This document shows, one piece after another, positions 16,141-35,374 of a DNA stretch of 38,037 bases (positions are counted from its first letter, which is position 1; the number at the start of each line of letters is the position of its first letter). The stretch covers positions 1 through 38,037 of IMG/VR virus record IMGVR_UViG_3300046011_005921; one strand, written 5' to 3'. Origin of the DNA: a virus. Below the pieces are notes generated by a model that did no database searches, was not told where the DNA came from, and was given only the letters and a program-made list of their open reading frames with translations. The position numbers and the translations under genes were made by a program.

Positions 16141-16170
16141 CAAAGATAATAATTTATTTTAAATTACAAA
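16141..16170 (-). promoter_or_regulatory. Bacteroidota-type promoter
   Basis: TATCTTTG at 16148-16141 and TTTG at 16170-16167, 18 bases apart; serves the Gp88-like gene. Confidence 0.75.
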
Positions 16171-17853: not shown

Positions 17854-18282
17854 ATGAAATATAATGAAAAGAAAAGATTGCAAATTGGGTTAAGAAGATT
17901 ATACACTGGACAGGCGCCAAGTAAAGAGATATTAAATTTAATAGGTACCGACAAGGATACCTTTGTTAACCATGTTAACGCGTATAGGATATCTGGGATG
18001 ACTGATGAGAATTTTGGGAAAGAATGGACACTGGACCATATAGTCCCAGTAGATATTTTTGACGTCAGTGACGAAGAGCAGCTAAAGATATGTTATAACT
18101 ATCATAACATAATGCCCATGTTTCTAAATGATAATAGGATAAAAGGTGCGAGCTCCCACTTCAGTTTAATTAAATTAAACAACTTAAAAAAGAACCCTAA
18201 ATTAAATACTGAGATGGTAAATAAATTAATTACCGAATGCGAAAATCATAACAGTAAAATATACGCGAAATACCTGGTTTAA
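17854..18282 (+). CDS. HNH homing endonuclease
   Basis: A 142-residue plus-strand protein with an HNH core of the EGY27-like type: EWTLDHIVPVDIFDVSDEEQ (about residues 64-83), CYNYHNIMPMFLNDNRIKG (87-105). The first His follows Asp, and the Asn-rich second half supplies the NH pair. The basic N-terminus (EKKRLQIGLRRLYTG) likely contacts DNA. I chose ATG at 17854, directly after the ATATTTATA element; an upstream ATG at 17815 lies before that element. Its neighbour on the left is a degraded gene. Confidence 0.82.
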   Translation: MKYNEKKRLQIGLRRLYTGQAPSKEILNLIGTDKDTFVNHVNAYRISGMTDENFGKEWTLDHIVPVDIFDVSDEEQLKICYNYHNIMPMFLNDNRIKGASSHFSLIKLNNLKKNPKLNTEMVNKLITECENHNSKIYAKYLV

Positions 18283-18484: not shown

Positions 18485-18502
18485 TAAAAAGCCCGTACGG
18501 GT
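18485..18502 (-). terminator. Intrinsic terminator of the array operon
   Basis: Around the perfect palindrome CCCGTACGGG, the minus strand reads CCC-GTAC-GGG-CTTTTT. It lies about 26 bases after the last array stop codon. Confidence 0.65.
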
Positions 18503-18510
18503 TTGTCTAT

Positions 18511-18526
18511 GTACACAAAAGTGTAC
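18511..18526. promoter_or_regulatory. GTACACAAAAGTGTAC palindrome at array end
   Basis: Extended to ATGTACACAAAAGTGTACAT it has 8-base arms. It lies between the array stop codon and the terminator. On the minus strand an ATG overlaps the stop codon as TAATG and opens a 14-codon frame (MYTFVYIDKPVRAF) that ends in the terminator. Confidence 0.5.
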
Positions 18527-18527
18527 A

Positions 18528-18713
18528 TTATCTTGCAGTATATAGTTTTTTAGTTAACTTATGTTTTGTATATTCTGTGTAACCGTATTCTATATTTTTT
18601 ACATAGAAACATTTATAGTATAGGTTATTATGACTCCAATATGATTCCCAATATCCATGTCTTTGTCCTTTATTATTATATGAAGGTATGTTTTTTTTAT
18701 TATTATCTTGCAC
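18528..18713 (-). CDS. Array protein, unit 17 (last)
   Basis: A 61-residue MORN-like protein, most likely started by GTG at 18713 within GTGCAAGATAA; an in-frame ATG pair at 18731 is possible but lies in the previous gene. It has YNNKGQRHGYWESYW, YYKCFYVKNIEYGY and ends LYTAR. The terminal junction has changed to CTGCAAGATAA, so the next start codon is lost, which fits its place as the end of the array. Confidence 0.8.
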   Translation of the reverse strand: MQDNNKKNIPSYNNKGQRHGYWESYWSHNNLYYKCFYVKNIEYGYTEYTKHKLTKKLYTAR

Positions 18714-18876
18714 AGTATTTTTTTTCATCATATGTTAATGCATATCCATACATAATCCAATTTACATAGAATCTTGTATACCATATTTTATTTGCTCCCA
18801 TCCAATATACTTTCCAATATCCATGGGGTTGTCCTTTATGATTTCTTGGTGTTATATTTTTATTATTATCTTGCAT
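18703..18876 (-). CDS. Array protein, unit 16
   Basis: A 57-residue MORN-like protein starting MQDNNKNITP at the junction ATGCAAGATAA. It has NHKGQPHGYWKVYW, WYTRFYVNWIMYGY and ends KYCAR, because the junction to the last unit is TGTGCAAGATAA. An earlier in-frame ATG at 18891 lies inside unit 15 and is not needed. Confidence 0.82.
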   Translation of the reverse strand: MQDNNKNITPRNHKGQPHGYWKVYWMGANKIWYTRFYVNWIMYGYALTYDEKKYCAR

Positions 18877-19045
18877 AGTATATTTTATCATTTAATTCAC
18901 CTGTATTTAGATAACTTTCAAGGTAGCCATAGCTTTCCCAATTTACATAGAAGCATTTATACCACATTGTATCTGACCAATATAGTTCCCAATAGCCATG
19001 AGCTTTTCCGTTTTTGTTATATGGTTTTATATTTTTATTTTGCAC
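18866..19045 (-). CDS. Array protein, unit 15 (GTG start)
   Basis: A 59-residue MORN-like protein. It starts with GTG at 19045 in GTGCAAAATAA and reads NKNGKAHGYWELYW, TMWYKCFYVNWESYGY, ending KIYYAR. It has the full family pattern and the 11-base overlap at both ends, which makes the GTG start convincing. Confidence 0.82.
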   Translation of the reverse strand: MQNKNIKPYNKNGKAHGYWELYWSDTMWYKCFYVNWESYGYLESYLNTGELNDKIYYAR

Positions 19046-19220
19046 AGTAGTATTTATCGATTATTTTATTGGTATTAAATTCTACATAACCGTATATGTT
19101 ATCATTTATGTAGAAGGATTTAGCCCATAGTTTATTATTATTCCAATATGTTTCCCAATAGCCATGTCTTTGTCCTTTATTGTTATATAGGTTTTTATTT
19201 ATTGTTGTATTATTTTGCAT
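19035..19220 (-). CDS. Array protein, unit 14
   Basis: A 61-residue MORN-like protein starting MQNNTTINKN at ATGCAAAATAA, with YNNKGQRHGYWETYW, LWAKSFYINDNIYGY and the end KYYCAK. Its first eight codons are shared with the broken unit 12, a sign of recent copying between units. Confidence 0.83.
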   Translation of the reverse strand: MQNNTTINKNLYNNKGQRHGYWETYWNNNKLWAKSFYINDNIYGYVEFNTNKIIDKYYCAK

Positions 19221-19401
19221 AGTATATTTCATCATTTTCGTTGAAGATAGTGTTTGCTATTGGAGAGTATATTTCATATCCGTACAAGGTACCGTTAACG
19301 TAGTGGCATTTGTTCCAAACTTTTTGGTTGGCTACTAGGGTCCATTTTCCATGGGGTTTTCCGTTTTTAATTGTCATTGTATGTTTAGGATTATCTTGCA
19401 T
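19210..19401 (-). CDS. Array protein, unit 13
   Basis: A 63-residue MORN-like protein, one of the more divergent: MQDNPKHTMTIKNGKPHGKW replaces HGYW by HGKW, followed by VWNKCHYVNGTLYGYEIY and the end IYYAK. Overlaps its neighbours by 11 bases on both sides. Confidence 0.83.
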   Translation of the reverse strand: MQDNPKHTMTIKNGKPHGKWTLVANQKVWNKCHYVNGTLYGYEIYSPIANTIFNENDEIYYAK

Positions 19402-19420
19402 AGAATAATATATTAATATC
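19391..19420. repeat. 30-base repeat shared by units 12 and 7, copy 1
   Basis: Identical to 20234-20263. It covers the last codons (DINILFYAR, stop) and the junction, pointing to gene conversion or a copying event within the array. Confidence 0.85.
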
Positions 19421-19553
19421 TGGGAATGTTTTTAATTTACAATATAATTGGCCAAAAGGTATTCCGTTTACGAAATATATTAATTTTATTAAATTATTAT
19501 CGTTATCGTATTTTTTTATTATTTTTTGTATTTATTGTTGTATTATTTTGCAT
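19391..19553 (-). pseudogene. Array unit 12, degenerate
   Basis: ATGCAAAATAA at 19553 opens MQNNTTINTKNNKKIR and then stops. Another frame carries the second half (KLIYFVNGIPFGQLY, ending DINILFYAR). The central HGYW part is missing and the unit is 152 bases, 3n+2, the only interval in the array that breaks the 3n+1 rule. Its last 30 bases are identical to the end of unit 7, so it looks like a recombinant relic. Both junctions remain intact. Confidence 0.75.
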
Positions 19554-19722
19554 AGTATGAATGTCTTATTTCCCCAAAAGATTTAATTATATCGTATCCA
19601 TATATAAATCCATTTACAAAGAAGCATTTATACCATAGTTTATTTTTACCCAAATATACTTCCCAATAACCATGAGGGTTATTCTTTTTATTTTTGGGTT
19701 GTATGTTTTTATTATTTTGCAT
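19543..19722 (-). CDS. Array protein, unit 11
   Basis: A 59-residue MORN-like protein (start MQNNKNIQPKNKKN). It has NNPHGYWEVYL, KLWYKCFFVNGFIYGYDI and ends HSYYAK. Start at 19722 and stop at 19543 both sit in ATGCAAAATAA junctions. Confidence 0.83.
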   Translation of the reverse strand: MQNNKNIQPKNKKNNPHGYWEVYLGKNKLWYKCFFVNGFIYGYDIIKSFGEIRHSYYAK

Positions 19723-19894
19723 AGTATCTTAATTCTGTTATAATTTTATAATTTTGATAATGTTGAAAACCAAAAAGTTTACCATTTACATAGTAGCATT
19801 TATTAGACAAATTGTTATCACTCCAATAGGTTTTCCAACATCCATGGGCCTGTCCTTTATCATTTATTGGTCGTATGTCTTTATTATTTTGCAT
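19712..19894 (-). CDS. Array protein, unit 10
   Basis: A 60-residue MORN-like protein: MQNNKDIRPINDKGQAHGCW, KTYWSDNNLSNKCYYVNGKL, ending RYYAK. HGYW is HGCW here. Overlaps both neighbours by 11 bases. Confidence 0.84.
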   Translation of the reverse strand: MQNNKDIRPINDKGQAHGCWKTYWSDNNLSNKCYYVNGKLFGFQHYQNYKIITELRYYAK

Positions 19895-20066
19895 AGTATT
19901 CGTTTATTTTACCCTTAGGACCAAATAAAAGTGAGTGTCCATATTCCACACCGTTTATGAAGAAGCATTTATACCATAGTTTATTATGACTCCAGTATAC
20001 TTCCCAGTACCCATGGGGTAAATCTTTATCATTTATTGGTCGTAAGTCTTTATTTTTATCTTGCAT
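19884..20066 (-). CDS. Array protein, unit 9
   Basis: A 60-residue MORN-like protein close to the family consensus: INDKDLPHGYWEVYWSHNKL, WYKCFFINGVEYGH, ending NEYYAK. Start in ATGCAAGATAA, stop in ATGCAAAATAA. Confidence 0.85.
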   Translation of the reverse strand: MQDKNKDLRPINDKDLPHGYWEVYWSHNKLWYKCFFINGVEYGHSLLFGPKGKINEYYAK

Positions 20067-20244
20067 AATATATTTTATGTGTTAACTTTCCTGTACTACA
20101 ATAACCTTCATTGTAACCATACATATTCCAATTTACGTAGAAGCATTTATATCTTAGGTTATTTGTTATACTATAATAAAGTTCACAATATCCATGAGGG
20201 ATATCATATTCATTTCTTGGTATTATGTCTTTATTATCTTGCAT
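20056..20244 (-). CDS. Array protein, unit 8
   Basis: A 62-residue MORN-like protein: NEYDIPHGYCELYYSITNNL, RYKCFYVNWNMYGY, ending KIYYAR. HGYW is HGYC. Both junctions are ATGCAAGATAA. Confidence 0.85.
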   Translation of the reverse strand: MQDNKDIIPRNEYDIPHGYCELYYSITNNLRYKCFYVNWNMYGYNEGYCSTGKLTHKIYYAR

Positions 20245-20263
20245 AGAATAATATATTAATATC
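20234..20263. repeat. 30-base repeat shared by units 12 and 7, copy 2
   Basis: Second copy of the 30-base sequence at 19391-19420. Confidence 0.85.
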
Positions 20264-20407
20264 GCTTATTGTCATACCATATTGTTCTCCGTTAACCAGA
20301 TATGTTGTATACCATAAATGGTTTGTGTTAGGGTAATATACTTCCCAATGTCCATGGGGTTGGTTATTTTTGTTATATTGTCTTATGTCTTTTTTTCTAT
20401 CTTGCAT
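20234..20407 (-). CDS. Array protein, unit 7
   Basis: A 57-residue MORN-like protein. It starts MQDRKKDIRQ, then NNQPHGHWEVYY, HLWYTTYLVNGEQYG, and ends DINILFYAR. The last 30 bases are identical to those of unit 12. Confidence 0.83.
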   Translation of the reverse strand: MQDRKKDIRQYNKNNQPHGHWEVYYPNTNHLWYTTYLVNGEQYGMTISDINILFYAR

Positions 20408-20582
20408 AGTATATTTTACTTCTTAATTTTACGTTGGAATCATATATTTCTTCGTATCCATATTCTTCAAAATTTATATAATAGCATGTAAAGAATAGTC
20501 TATCAGAATGTGGGTAGTATTTTTCCCAATATCCGTTAGGTATTCCAATTTTGTTATATGATGTTATATCTTTATGTTGCAT
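20397..20582 (-). CDS. Array protein, unit 6
   Basis: A 61-residue MORN-like protein starting MQHKDITSYN at the variant junction ATGCAACATAA, with IPNGYWEKYYPHSDRLFFTC, YYINFEEYGYEEIY and the end KIYYAR. Confidence 0.84.
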   Translation of the reverse strand: MQHKDITSYNKIGIPNGYWEKYYPHSDRLFFTCYYINFEEYGYEEIYDSNVKLRSKIYYAR

Positions 20583-20763
20583 AATATTCTCTGATTATTT
20601 TTGGTGTATTGCTTAAATTACCGCTCCATGATTCATATATAGCATATCCAAATGTTATATTATCAACATAAAAAATATTCAGAGTATAAGTTTTCTCATG
20701 ATTAAGCCAAATCCATTGCCCATGTGCGTTACCTTTATTGTTATATGGTGTTTTATCTTGCAT
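20572..20763 (-). CDS. Array protein, unit 5
   Basis: A 63-residue MORN-like protein: MQDKTPYNNKGNAHGQWIWL, YTLNIFYVDNITFGYAIY, ending EYYAT. The last residue is Thr because the junction reads ATGCAACATAA; the next protein accordingly starts M-Q-H. Both frames follow the single base change. Confidence 0.84.
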   Translation of the reverse strand: MQDKTPYNNKGNAHGQWIWLNHEKTYTLNIFYVDNITFGYAIYESWSGNLSNTPKIIREYYAT

Positions 20764-20950
20764 AGTAAAACATGTTTATACTTCGTCTATCCAAAGCATC
20801 GCGAGAATTAATTACTTCATATCCGTATATTACATCATTTACATAGAAGCATTTATACCATAGTATTCCATCGTTCCAATATGATTCCCAATAGCCACGA
20901 GCTTGACCTTTATCATTTATTGGTTTTATGTCTTTTTTTCTATCTTGCAT
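20753..20950 (-). CDS. Array protein, unit 4
   Basis: A 65-residue MORN-like protein, the longest interior unit: INDKGQARGYWESYWNDGIL, WYKCFYVNDVIYGYE, then an insertion (SRDALDRRS) and the end FYYAR. An in-frame ATG at 21004 would add 18 residues read from inside unit 3 and is rejected. Confidence 0.83.
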   Translation of the reverse strand: MQDRKKDIKPINDKGQARGYWESYWNDGILWYKCFYVNDVIYGYEVINSRDALDRRSINMFYYAR

Positions 20951-21122
20951 AATATGTTTTATTAGAATATGAGCCATCAATAGAAGAAAATTTATAATAC
21001 CCATAATTTATTGTATTTAAATAATAACCTAGATAGAAAAAGGTACCAGTTGTTTTATAGTATCTTTCATTATACCCATGTCTTTTATAATTTTTACGGT
21101 TTGTTATATTTTTATCTTGCAT
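20940..21122 (-). CDS. Array protein, unit 3
   Basis: A 60-residue MORN-like protein with weaker motif: NYKRHGYNERYYKTTGTFFY, LGYYLNTINYGYYKF, ending TYYAR. The Trp of HGYW is Asn. Confidence 0.82.
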   Translation of the reverse strand: MQDKNITNRKNYKRHGYNERYYKTTGTFFYLGYYLNTINYGYYKFSSIDGSYSNKTYYAR

Positions 21123-21297
21123 AGTATGCTTTATGTATTAAATTTACTTTAAAACTATATATTTCTTCGAACCCATAAACCGTATCATTTGAATAAAAAC
21201 GTTTAAACCATAGGTTATTTGTTATTCTATGATAAACTTCCCAATATCCATGTCTTTTAAAGTCGTGGTTATAAGTTCTTATATTTTTATTTTGCAT
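21112..21297 (-). CDS. Array protein, unit 2
   Basis: A 61-residue MORN-like protein: MQNKNIRTYNHDFKRHGYWE, NNLWFKRFYSNDTVYGFEEI, ending AYYAR. First unit whose start lies in the shared junction (ATGCAAAATAA). Confidence 0.84.
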   Translation of the reverse strand: MQNKNIRTYNHDFKRHGYWEVYHRITNNLWFKRFYSNDTVYGFEEIYSFKVNLIHKAYYAR

Positions 21298-21493
21298 GAT
21301 ATTGTTTGACTCTTAACTCTCCTTCTTTATCGTATATTTCTTCGAAGCCATGTTCTACATCATTTATATAGAAGCATTTATACCACATGATATCTACTTT
21401 ATAGTATACTTCCCAATATCCATATGCTTTACCATTTTTATGTGGTAAAATATTTTGTTCTATATTTGTCATACCTATTTCTATATTTGTCAT
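21287..21493 (-). CDS. Array protein, unit 1 (first)
   Basis: A 68-residue MORN-like protein. Its start is unlike the others: MTNIEIGMTNIEQN comes from a direct repeat of ATGACAAATATAGAA, so either ATG (21493 or 21472) may be used. It continues KNGKAYGYWEVYYK, MWYKCFYINDVEHGFEEIYD and ends QYHAK. It begins 12 bases after the lipoprotein stop and passes ribosomes to unit 2 through the first junction. Confidence 0.83.
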   Translation of the reverse strand: MTNIEIGMTNIEQNILPHKNGKAYGYWEVYYKVDIMWYKCFYINDVEHGFEEIYDKEGELRVKQYHAK

Positions 21494-22527: not shown

Positions 22528-22782
22528 TTAATACTTTTCCATTACCACTATTCCGTAAATAGTGTATTGTTTACCTGCTAATGATTGAGATTTCAAAATC
22601 CAACCTTTTTTAATCATTTTTTTAATATATTCTGCTTGTACATCACCTATATCAGCATCCGTAAATTCTTTAACAACAAAATACTTTGGAGTAGCAGGTT
22701 TTACGGTTATTACTCTGACGGTGGTTGCTGATGTTAGGATTACTAATGCAATTCCTAACAATACGTAAAATACGTTTTTCAT
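22528..22782 (-). CDS. Membrane-anchored or exported DUF4177-like protein
   Basis: An 84-residue protein with an N-terminal hydrophobic segment (VFYVLLGIALVILTSATTV), then YFVVKEFTDADIGDVQAEYI, KKMIKKGWILKSQSLAG and YTIYGIVVMEKY. The strand-helix-strand-strand layout with GW and a final VMEK strand recalls DUF4177. First gene of the operon that ends with the MORN-like array. Confidence 0.68.
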   Translation of the reverse strand: MKNVFYVLLGIALVILTSATTVRVITVKPATPKYFVVKEFTDADIGDVQAEYIKKMIKKGWILKSQSLAGKQYTIYGIVVMEKY

Positions 22783-22814: not shown

Positions 22815-22846
22815 CAAATGTAAAGAATTAATTTGATAATACCAAA
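22815..22846 (-). promoter_or_regulatory. Promoter of the array operon
   Basis: TACATTTG at 22822-22815 and TTTG at 22846-22843, 20 bases apart. I see no other such promoter or strong terminator between here and 18502, so the 4.3-kb transcript probably covers 22528-22782 through unit 17. Confidence 0.72.
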
Positions 22847-28921: not shown

Positions 28922-29107
28922 TTATTTTGCATAATAATTTTTTTTTGCCACTTCACCATCATAATGGTTAGCTTGAAATAAACCTAAAGTCTTTCCATCA
29001 ACAAAATATGCTTTCCATGATAAGCCACCTAAATGCTTTTCATCATAATGTGTTATCCAGAACCCATGAGGGTTTGATTTATTATTATAGTCTCTTTTAT
29101 CTTGCAT
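28922..29107 (-). CDS. Dispersed array-family protein D5
   Basis: A 61-residue member of the MORN-like array family outside the array: MQDKRDYNNKSNPHGFWITH, LSWKAYFVDGKTLGLFQ, ending NYYAK. It keeps the terminal junction ATGCAAAATAA, although the frame begun there is only seven codons long and no further unit follows. It is the last gene of the operon that starts at 30477. Confidence 0.8.
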   Translation of the reverse strand: MQDKRDYNNKSNPHGFWITHYDEKHLGGLSWKAYFVDGKTLGLFQANHYDGEVAKKNYYAK

Positions 29108-29111
29108 GGTA

Positions 29112-29297
29112 TCAGATATTATCTTTTAAAACTTCAAAATACATAAATTCTAAGCATTTATAAACGCTTAAATTTGTTTTAAAACAATCATGAATATAGT
29201 CTTGATATTTCTCAAGGTCTTTATCAGTATAACTATACTGATTTTCATCTCTAAGCACTTTTACAGCTGCTAGATAGTCTTCAAATGTTGCTTTCAT
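29112..29297 (-). CDS. Small helical protein
   Basis: A 61-residue helical acidic protein (MKATFEDYLAAVKVLRDENQ at the start). No family recognised. Its start overlaps the end of the upstream gene by 17 bases and its stop lies 4 bases before the start of D5. Confidence 0.74.
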   Translation of the reverse strand: MKATFEDYLAAVKVLRDENQYSYTDKDLEKYQDYIHDCFKTNLSVYKCLEFMYFEVLKDNI

Positions 29298-29562
29298 AAC
29301 CTTTTTCTTTTTTAAATTGTTCTAGTGATTCTCGGTTGAATTGACTTCTTGGTTTGTCTTTTAACCACTCTGCAAACTCAACAGCGTAATCGTCGGCTAT
29401 ATCATAAGCTATATGTCTTAATTCATCAAACTGCTTTTCATTGAAAGGTTCATCTTTGTTGATATACTTATCCCATGATTCGTTCTTAATTATATTCCAA
29501 TTAATTTCACCAAACATATAAATTAACTCTTTAAATGTTTGTTCTAAAAAATTATTCGTCAT
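29281..29562 (-). CDS. Hypothetical protein
   Basis: A 93-residue helical acidic protein (MTNNFLEQTFKELIYMFGEI at the start, EQFKKEKGYESNI at the end). No family recognised. Overlaps both neighbours (11 and 17 bases), typical of a tightly coupled operon. Confidence 0.75.
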   Translation of the reverse strand: MTNNFLEQTFKELIYMFGEINWNIIKNESWDKYINKDEPFNEKQFDELRHIAYDIADDYAVEFAEWLKDKPRSQFNRESLEQFKKEKGYESNI

Positions 29563-30178
29563 ACCATTTATCTTTTAAAATTGCGTCCCAGAAACATATT
29601 CTTTCTTCTTCACCGTTATTATATCTTATCCAAACACAAGGAAATTCTTTTCTTGCTTGTATAAGTCTTTCTTTTGTTGATTTTGTTTTATTGGTGTTTC
29701 TCGTATAATACAACCAACATTCCCAATAATGTGAATCTTCTATTGGTGTGAACTTGATAGCTACTTGCCATTTAATCAATACGAAGCTCCACACTGGATT
29801 CCATTCATGTCTATAATCTGTATCTTTCCATTTTGTTTTCCAACCAAGACCCACAAAATCAAAACCTATTTTTTTATCAATAAATTTACCTCTTCTACTA
29901 TAATCATAGTATAGTTTTTCGAACCCTATTTTTTCAGCATTAGGGTTATTCTTTAGTTCATTTAAAGTAGCGTCTATCGCTTCTTGTTCTGTTAACCTTA
30001 CTAATTTTCTAGGGAAGAAATAAGGGACACCCACCGCTATTTTACCTATGTATATTTTTGGTATAATAGGTTTAAATGGTGAGTTGTATGTTTTAATAAA
30101 ATCAAATCTTTTAATAAAAAATTTAATTTTATAATATAAACCTAATTTAATTAATATTTCTTTCATTTTATCTTGCAT
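29552..30178 (-). CDS. Conserved phage protein using an array junction as start
   Basis: A 208-residue protein, not an array relative. Its first codons M-Q-D-K come from the ATGCAAGATAA junction at the end of D4; the ancestral start is probably the next ATG (MKEILIKLGL, 30166), directly after the D4 stop. The centre has FDFVGLGWKTKWKDTDYRHE and WSFVLIKWQVAIKF, Trp-rich strands known from Bacteroidota phages. Function unknown. Confidence 0.78.
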   Translation of the reverse strand: MQDKMKEILIKLGLYYKIKFFIKRFDFIKTYNSPFKPIIPKIYIGKIAVGVPYFFPRKLVRLTEQEAIDATLNELKNNPNAEKIGFEKLYYDYSRRGKFIDKKIGFDFVGLGWKTKWKDTDYRHEWNPVWSFVLIKWQVAIKFTPIEDSHYWECWLYYTRNTNKTKSTKERLIQARKEFPCVWIRYNNGEEERICFWDAILKDKWYDE

Positions 30179-30329
30179 AATATATAAAATTTATTCTTCC
30201 TTCAATCCAAAAACCATAATCAACATCGTTAACAAAAAATCCCTTGGAATTAATTTCTCCAGTTAAAGTAGAGTATACTTCCCATATACCATGTAATTGT
30301 TTATTATTATATGAAATTTTATCTTGCAT
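30168..30329 (-). CDS. Dispersed array-family protein D4
   Basis: A 53-residue array-family protein: MQDKISYNNKQLHGIWEVYS, KGFFVNDVDYGFWIEGR, ending IYYAR. Start and stop both lie in ATGCAAGATAA junctions, shared with D3 upstream and with the unrelated gene at 29552-30178 downstream. Confidence 0.82.
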   Translation of the reverse strand: MQDKISYNNKQLHGIWEVYSTLTGEINSKGFFVNDVDYGFWIEGRINFIYYAR

Positions 30330-30456
30330 AATATATTTTTTCAGTTTTTCTTTCAATCCAGAATCCGTAATCAATAAAATTAACAAAAACGCCCTTAGCC
30401 ATAATAACACCATTGGTTCCAAGTAGTTCAAAATGTTCAGTTTTATATTCCATCAT
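30319..30456 (-). CDS. Dispersed array-family protein D3
   Basis: A 45-residue, shortened array-family protein. It starts at ATG 30456 (or the next codon, 30453), not at a junction, and lacks the HGYW half, but keeps KGVFVNFIDYGFWIER and ends IYYAR in the junction to D4. DYGFWIE is shared with D4, so the two are recent duplicates. It is the first gene of its operon. Confidence 0.78.
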   Translation of the reverse strand: MMEYKTEHFELLGTNGVIMAKGVFVNFIDYGFWIERKTEKIYYAR

Positions 30457-30476: not shown

Positions 30477-30508
30477 CAAATATACTTAATTTATTTTAAA
30501 TAACCAAA
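30477..30508 (-). promoter_or_regulatory. Bacteroidota-type promoter
   Basis: TATATTTG at 30484-30477 and TTTG at 30508-30505, 20 bases apart; serves the operon D3-D4-29552-29281-29112-D5. Confidence 0.75.
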
Positions 30509-30846: not shown

Positions 30847-30877
30847 CAAATATACTAATTAATTTTTAATAAAACAA
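30847..30877 (-). promoter_or_regulatory. Bacteroidota-type promoter
   Basis: TATATTTG at 30854-30847 and TTG at 30877-30875, 20 bases apart; serves 30578-30811. Confidence 0.7.
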
Positions 30878-30884
30878 GTTAAAT

Positions 30885-31028
30885 TCAACAATAATAACTT
30901 TTATTTTTTATCCCATGACTTGTTACTTCTGTAGGACCAAAAATTTTACCATTTAAAACATAATATTTCATAGTATAACCAATACTAGAAAAATCAAACT
31001 CTTTAATACCGTTTAATTTATTTTGCAT
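30885..31028 (-). CDS. Dispersed array-family protein D2
   Basis: A 47-residue, degenerate array-family protein starting MQNKLNGIKEFDFSSIG in the junction ATGCAAAATAA, with MKYYVLNGKIFGP as the second-half motif and the end KSYYC. The terminal junction has been lost, so the chain ends here. Confidence 0.74.
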   Translation of the reverse strand: MQNKLNGIKEFDFSSIGYTMKYYVLNGKIFGPTEVTSHGIKNKSYYC

Positions 31029-31197
31029 AATATTCACTTTGATAAACAATTGATTCTACATTCAAATCTTCAGAAAACCCAAATATTTCATCATTAACAA
31101 AATATGCGGAATAACCAGTATAATCAAATGATTTAGGTATTATATACCATTTACCATGTCTTTGGCCTAACCCATTTACTGGTTTAAGTTCTTCCAT
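31018..31197 (-). CDS. Dispersed array-family protein D1
   Basis: A 59-residue array-family protein: MEELKPVNGLGQRHGKWYII, SAYFVNDEIFGFSED, ending EYYAK in the junction to D2. Its start is an ordinary ATG, 8 bases after the stop of 31206-32003, so it is a founder type like unit 1. Confidence 0.8.
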   Translation of the reverse strand: MEELKPVNGLGQRHGKWYIIPKSFDYTGYSAYFVNDEIFGFSEDLNVESIVYQSEYYAK

Positions 31198-35343: not shown

Positions 35344-35374
35344 CAAAGATACTATTTATTTTTTAACTTCCAAA
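35344..35374 (-). promoter_or_regulatory. Bacteroidota-type promoter
   Basis: TATCTTTG at 35351-35344 and TTTG at 35374-35371, 19 bases apart; serves 33377-35320. The -33 box lies inside the end of the upstream gene. Confidence 0.75.

Follow-up and report, generated by a model that had tools for sequence, protein, structure and literature searches.

A tandem array of start/stop-overlapped genes for predicted MORN_2 mini-proteins in a Bacteroidota phage

Proteins of the MORN_2 family (PF07661) are commonly annotated as YwqK-type antitoxins, and they form the nearest relatives of the products of the locus described here, an array of 17 head-to-tail mini-genes on the minus strand (positions 18528-21493) of the viral sequence IMGVR_UViG_3300046011_005921, whose 38,037 nucleotides (nt) were analysed as a whole and are called the window below. 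Expansions of such genes have been described in Fusobacterium, where many lineage-specific MORN2 proteins of unknown function occur, mostly with signal sequences and beside autotransporter genes (PMC12940168), and the family antitoxin YwqK of Bacillus subtilis forms a toxin-antitoxin pair of the LXG type with YwqJ (PMC8321402). The arrangement of the genes, in turn, is reminiscent of coupled ATGA or TGATG pairs, in which the next start likewise lies inside the end of the previous gene (PMC6728339, PMC10666635, PMC12548453).

The array combines these two known kinds, a MORN_2 expansion and start/stop-overlapped genes, and the combination is new. Like MORN_2 and viral MORN variants (A0A6J5M5P7), the window units possess the GxxHGxWExY motif and a predicted beta-hairpin meander, but they comprise only two hairpins, score below the Pfam cut-off and are encoded as an overlapping array. 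In contrast to the Fusobacterium proteins, they are short, reside in phage operons with start/stop overlaps and start MQDK or MQNN, lacking by inspection the hydrophobic leader of an export signal sequence. Whereas exact ATGA overlaps as in the coupled pairs are also used by related MORN arrays, the overlap in the window measures 11 nt and encodes, in 16 paralogs one after another, a conserved C-terminus along with the next start; any coupling across it is putative. Furthermore, and unlike YwqJ-YwqK, no toxin partner is recognised beside the array, as Pfam and PHROGs scans of its neighbours named no toxin. We propose, with moderate confidence, that the locus is a polycistronic array whose paralogous genes encode fast-evolving MORN_2 mini-proteins of two hairpins, each start being embedded in the tail of the previous gene, and that ribosomes enter its units by a mixture of routes.

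The junction carries most of this argument. All internal boundaries match [A/G]TGCAA[A/G/C]ATA[A/G] (that is, [A/G]TGCAANATA[A/G]), two of them ending in TAG. The motif RTGCAANATAR occurs 21 times in the window, always on the minus strand, as compared to 0.97 expected from dinucleotide shuffles (largest count 4); 16 of these sites lie inside the array, and the other five (28922, 29097, 30168, 30319 and 31018) are found in further family members or at the start of an unrelated gene. The closing Tyr-Ala codons of one gene contain the start codon of the next, TAT-GCN providing ATG and TGT-GCN providing GTG. Across 43 junctions from the window and two related phages (L140 and L141), two of which lead into non-family open reading frames (ORFs), the third-last codon is TAT in 35, CAT in 5, TGT in 2 and AAT in 1, and together with the next G it always spells ATG or GTG, whether the residue is Y, H, N or C. 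The Tyr codon just before it shows no preference (TAC 21, TAT 20; Fisher 1e-7 versus the third-last codon), and the Ala wobble base varies freely (GCA 34, GCC 3, GCG 3, GCT 2) even as this variation alters residue 2 of the following protein (Q/P/R/L). Counted over the 43 joints between family units, the NTG start is retained in 41, the remaining two being a start moved to -14 and a gap, versus three of seven array ends. The 11-nt overlap is likewise present at 41 of the 43 family joints, versus 3 out of 75 (4%) among the remaining gene pairs of these phages, 9% of which have a 4-nt overlap. Because the start is kept between units and decays at array ends, and because the codon usage follows the same pattern, both readings of the junction are in use: it is truly dual-coding and selected in both frames.

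The number of units, their coordinates and their spacings are exactly as given in the initial annotation, to which the strand is added here. Sixteen of the 17 are intact, with 57-68 codons. Taking the higher coordinate as the start of each, they are unit 1 (21287..21493, a MORN mini-protein of 68 amino acids (aa), 12 nt from the upstream gene), unit 2 (21112..21297, 61 aa), unit 3 (20940..21122, 60 aa, TAG stop), unit 4 (20753..20950, 65 aa), unit 5 (20572..20763, 63 aa, C-terminus YYAT), unit 6 (20397..20582, 61 aa, TAG stop), unit 7 (20234..20407, 57 aa), unit 8 (20056..20244, 62 aa), unit 9 (19884..20066, 60 aa, for which a structure was predicted), unit 10 (19712..19894, 60 aa), unit 11 (19543..19722, 59 aa), unit 12 (19391..19553), unit 13 (19210..19401, 63 aa), unit 14 (19035..19220, 61 aa), unit 15 (18866..19045, 59 aa, GTG start), unit 16 (18703..18876, 57 aa) and unit 17 (18528..18713, 61 aa, GTG start). 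Unit 12 is broken by a stop after 16 codons (MQNNTTINTKNNKKIR-stop), with its C-terminal part in another frame and both of its junctions retained. From 21297 onward the starts are 175, 172, 187, 181, 175, 163, 178, 172, 172, 169, 152, 181, 175, 169 and 163 nt apart. The 3n+1 remainder of these spacings had been taken to imply selection for the overlap; it follows arithmetically, for any unit length, from an exact 11-nt overlap (3x3+2) between intact frames (3n-11 = 3m+1), and thus shows that the frames are maintained but is no evidence over and above the junction.

The units share a mean identity of 40%, and their similarity does not fall with distance along the array (Mantel r 0.01), which marks the array as old and argues that the junction was not conserved merely through recent copying. 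Consistent with old, diverged units, tandem-repeat tools detected no array at 18528-21493; a search of RNA families gave no match. The AlphaFold (AF2) model of unit 9 (predicted local distance difference test score, pLDDT, 89.6) is a four-stranded antiparallel meander with two MORN hairpins, and its top Foldseek matches in the PDB are the MORN region of SET7/9 and MORN1 structures, while the viral hits are MORN variants, among them A0A6J5M5P7 from an uncultured Caudovirales phage, to which the identity is 40%. MORN_2 was matched by 14 of 40 units at 0.1 (best E 3e-7), and in G005 and G006, two related contigs, the family scores above the cut-off. From model and profiles together, we regard the products as diverged two-hairpin MORN_2 mini-proteins. 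Ratios of nonsynonymous to synonymous substitution (dN/dS) amount to 0.19-0.49 for orthologous units of L140 and L141 and 0.74 for one paralog pair, versus 0.03-0.04 for two neighbouring genes, which indicates translated units whose evolution is roughly tenfold faster than that of the adjacent genes. With dN/dS spanning 0.19-0.74 and the units separate in relatives too, the initial view of them as genuine protein genes is upheld.

Two related phages, L140 and L141, show the same 11-nt layout. They have common flanking genes and some orthologous units, but contain 20 versus 11 unit frames, a difference which suggests that units are gained and lost as modules; in our model, these would be whole modules from junction to junction. 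In more distant viral contigs (L138, L139, L142, L143, L144, L146, L147, L186 and L188), MORN arrays show 4-nt ATGA overlaps at about 86 joints, a count that leaves out L184 since it overlaps L138 and L143, and the MORN genes of L137 are separated by gaps of 7-15 nt. Judged from these sequences, the overlapping MORN layout is recurrent, with 4- or 11-base overlaps in about a dozen viral contigs. The initial statement that no system of this design has been described therefore holds for the literature searched, but not in the sense of a unique object, and the components are known. As a separate observation, the 115,661-bp contig of L138 and L143 has 149 MORN_2 matches and dozens of multi-repeat genes, mostly ATGA-joined.

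The origin of the overlap may be reflected in L199, which has neighbouring genes in common with the window and carries non-overlapping multi-MORN genes ending F-Y-A-R-M (TTTTATGCAAGAATGTAA). The ATG in their tails is unused; it is retained in five of seven units and lost in two. That non-overlapping genes also end in Tyr-Ala-Arg indicates that this tail belongs to the last strand as a feature of the protein, and the lineage of the window probably took the ATG latent in it (TAT-GCN) into use as the start of the following gene. Once taken up, the overlap would be locked, as most changes there would harm either the start codon or the C-terminus. Among annotated phage records, neither the window nor the L140 units had a match in DNA or protein, and an L138 protein had four weak ones; scans of bacterial genomes, with two single proteins as the only queries, found no relatives. 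Contigs spanning both array flanks were not found (L149 and L150 stop short of the array), and a 15-mer junction scan of viral contigs was uninformative, as it returned 120 stretches and each listed locus had one match at most.

How are the units expressed? No TAT[AC]TTTG promoter precedes any unit of the array, and the nearest upstream promoter element of the Bacteroidota type, TACATTTG (22815..22822, minus strand), lies 32 nt before the gene at 22782. The absence of internal promoters makes one long mRNA likely, in agreement with the initial annotation. Of 41 internal starts, 39 have A at -3. The third codon positions -5, -8 and -17 carry more A than the amino acids would lead one to expect, and the minimum free energy at the junctions, -2.34, is close to the -2.77 of promoter-led starts and less negative than the -5.18 of randomly chosen positions in the array. 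In Flavobacterium johnsoniae, A-3 promotes initiation and is the main positive signal (PMC6847099). Given A-3, the A-rich upstream sequence and the little RNA structure, the internal starts look competent alone, and a mixed entry appears most likely to us, in which ribosomes would reinitiate after the preceding stop, 8 nt downstream of the new AUG, and would in addition initiate directly.

Each half of this mixture could also operate by itself. Fully independent initiation at all internal starts, with the overlap as frozen dual coding of no expression role, is a possible if improbable alternative: the unstructured A-3 starts resemble those of promoter-led genes, broken units are tolerated, the 3n+1 spacing is purely arithmetic and the syntenic L199 has gaps between its genes. 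It accounts poorly, though, for two unrelated junction sequences that overlap start and stop in different viruses well above the general 4% (11 nt) and 9% (4 nt). Rather unlikely, in our opinion, is a strict termination-reinitiation cascade, in which only those ribosomes finishing one unit translate the next, giving matched or graded amounts. Such a cascade would suit the fact that nearly all joints overlap, by 11 nt in this array and by 4 nt in others, as well as the lack of internal promoters and the enrichment of short overlaps among coupled genes and subunits of heteromeric complexes (PMC10666635). However, the internal starts appear self-sufficient, the five units after the broken unit 12 are intact, a broken unit of L141 likewise precedes intact ones, and 16 imperfect steps would be expected to yield steeply falling instead of matched amounts. 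Reinitiation is favoured by short overlaps, but coupling in published reporters falls as overlaps grow from -4 to -25, dropping already beyond 4 nt (PMC12548453). On the strength of the unstructured A-3 starts, the five units past unit 12 and these reporters, the termination-reinitiation with roughly matched amounts that was initially put forward is unproven.

Three explanations of other kinds were rejected. That the junction is kept as a DNA element, such as a recombination or binding site, would agree with an 11-15 bp motif at every boundary and with whole units gained or lost between L140 and L141, but the motif decays at array ends and its variation obeys both codes (the Ala wobble is free, and Y, H, N and C all spell NTG), so that this is very improbable as the main reason. 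Still less credible is a single long MORN polyprotein produced by programmed +1 frameshifting at each junction. MORN repeats do usually stand in tandem in one chain, multi-MORN chains are present in related arrays, and every junction makes a constant +1 step; yet there is no slippery sequence, the start codon (GTG included) and A-3 are conserved, the Ala wobble is free, Arg, Lys, Thr and Ile codons alternate before the stop, and the ATGA arrays would require the opposite shift. Finally, one broken unit out of 17 and the metagenomic source might hint at a single long gene interrupted by frameshift errors of sequencing or assembly, or at decaying pseudogenes. Relatives with one long ORF were sought and none was found, the layout is identical in L140 and L141 and analogous in other contigs, ortholog dN/dS stays below 1, and shuffles yield about one junction motif instead of 21; hence we give this explanation practically no credence.

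For the overlapping array of MORN_2 mini-proteins with mixed ribosome entry, the role of the products is the weakest part. They are probably diversified binding modules in phage-host conflict, kept as many variants, a role suggested by the rapid evolution of the units, by their numerous and divergent variants, by the turnover of modules and by the function as antitoxins ascribed to some members of MORN_2; as small beta-sheet modules, they might for example neutralise or decoy host toxins or defence proteins. Several points weigh against the proposal as a whole. The conflict role is drawn only from the pace of evolution, from changes in copy number and from the annotation of MORN_2 proteins elsewhere as antitoxins. 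The overlap could persist through dual-coding lock-in without any coupling, and the loss of coupling at longer overlaps in the reporters of PMC12548453 bears on the reinitiation share of our model as well. The PDB E-values of Foldseek for unit 9 are weak (best 0.08), the unit reaches 14.6 bits with the MORN_2 profile, below the Pfam cut-off of 29.6, and the window units individually stay under the gathering score. No near-identical second genome covering the array itself was found. MORN proteins are able to oligomerise (PMC7725318), and more speculatively the array might act as an expandable mini-protein cassette, in which the tail of each module is the next initiation signal, insertion or loss is harmless to the rest, and the co-translated repertoire is directed at host toxins or defence or assembles edge to edge into mixed MORN sheets; this extension we deem unlikely.

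With 16 successive cases, the array is an unusually long and clean natural series of dual-coding start/stop overlaps, and since array ends, broken units and relatives with 4-nt overlaps or none serve as built-in controls, it offers a ready test bed for ribosome entry into overlapping genes, one that concerns Bacteroidota, which do not use Shine-Dalgarno signals. A large, apparently undescribed phage MORN gene expansion is also indicated.

The array ends differ from its interior. Unit 17 terminates in TATACTGCAAGATAA, in which the embedded start codon is gone, and no gene follows. Directly after it, a hairpin (UGUACACUUUUGUGUACA, 18496..18528, minus strand, z -2.1) stands beside a CCCGTACGGGCTTTTT dyad and is a possible transcript end before the convergent gene; a consensus terminator scan did not report it. 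At the opposite end, the start of unit 1 (21458-21493) contains a short direct duplication, MTNIEIG-MTNIEQ, resulting in two alternative Met start codons.

Besides the array, the minus strand carries five more genes of the family at 28.9-31.2 kb, which the initial annotation did not include. A stand-alone member (28922..29107) keeps the embedded ATG at its end though no ORF follows. Another (30168..30329) shares its last 11 nt with the beginning of an unrelated gene of 208 aa (29552-30178), which starts MQDK as it is overlapped through the same junction. A short member (30319..30456) has its own promoter element TATATTTG at 30477-30484, and in a two-unit array one member (31018..31197) is followed by a closing one (30885..31028) that ends YYC-stop, the start codon being lost. 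At 29281-30456 (minus strand), four genes are chained by 11-nt overlaps, namely two MORN units, the unrelated 208-aa gene and an unrelated 94-aa gene.

Concerning the source of the window, its 24-38 kb part is about 99-99.9% identical to contigs of 93 kb and 306 kb, the latter with 99.9% identity across 9.25 kb; two others, of 76 and 362 kb, are related more distantly, with identities of mostly 70-80% in the aligned parts. Both the 306-kb and the 362-kb contig encode a terminase, which in the former is T4-like with about 30% identity to terminases of Flavobacterium and Microcystis phages. By sequence comparison, and with a near-identical 306-kb contig carrying a terminase, the window is a fragment of a huge (>200 kb) tailed Bacteroidota phage. 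The host is clearly signalled by very regular promoters: TTTG-N19-TAT[AC]TTTG, of the TTTG-N19-TAnnTTTG type that we take to be the Bacteroidota pattern, precedes 20 genes on the strand of the array, and 20 of 28 minus-strand TAT[AC]TTTG sites lie at most 60 nt upstream of an ORF start, zones that make up 9% of positions. Examples on this strand are found at 35344-35351, 30847-30854 and 16141-16148.

In the 362-kb phage, the terminase match (L193, G004:222663-223415) has an open frame of 1001 codons versus 602 in the 306-kb relative, possibly due to an insertion such as an intein. Elsewhere in the window, a gene at 862-1731 resembles LAGLIDADG homing endonucleases (Pfam E 2.7e-11), and an ORF at 2217-2759 resembles, by eye, an ankyrin-repeat protein (NGADVN.. 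repeats). An Endonuclease VII-like gene (17857-18282) is convergent with the array end; its relative in L140 is 91% identical and placed differently with respect to the MORN array.

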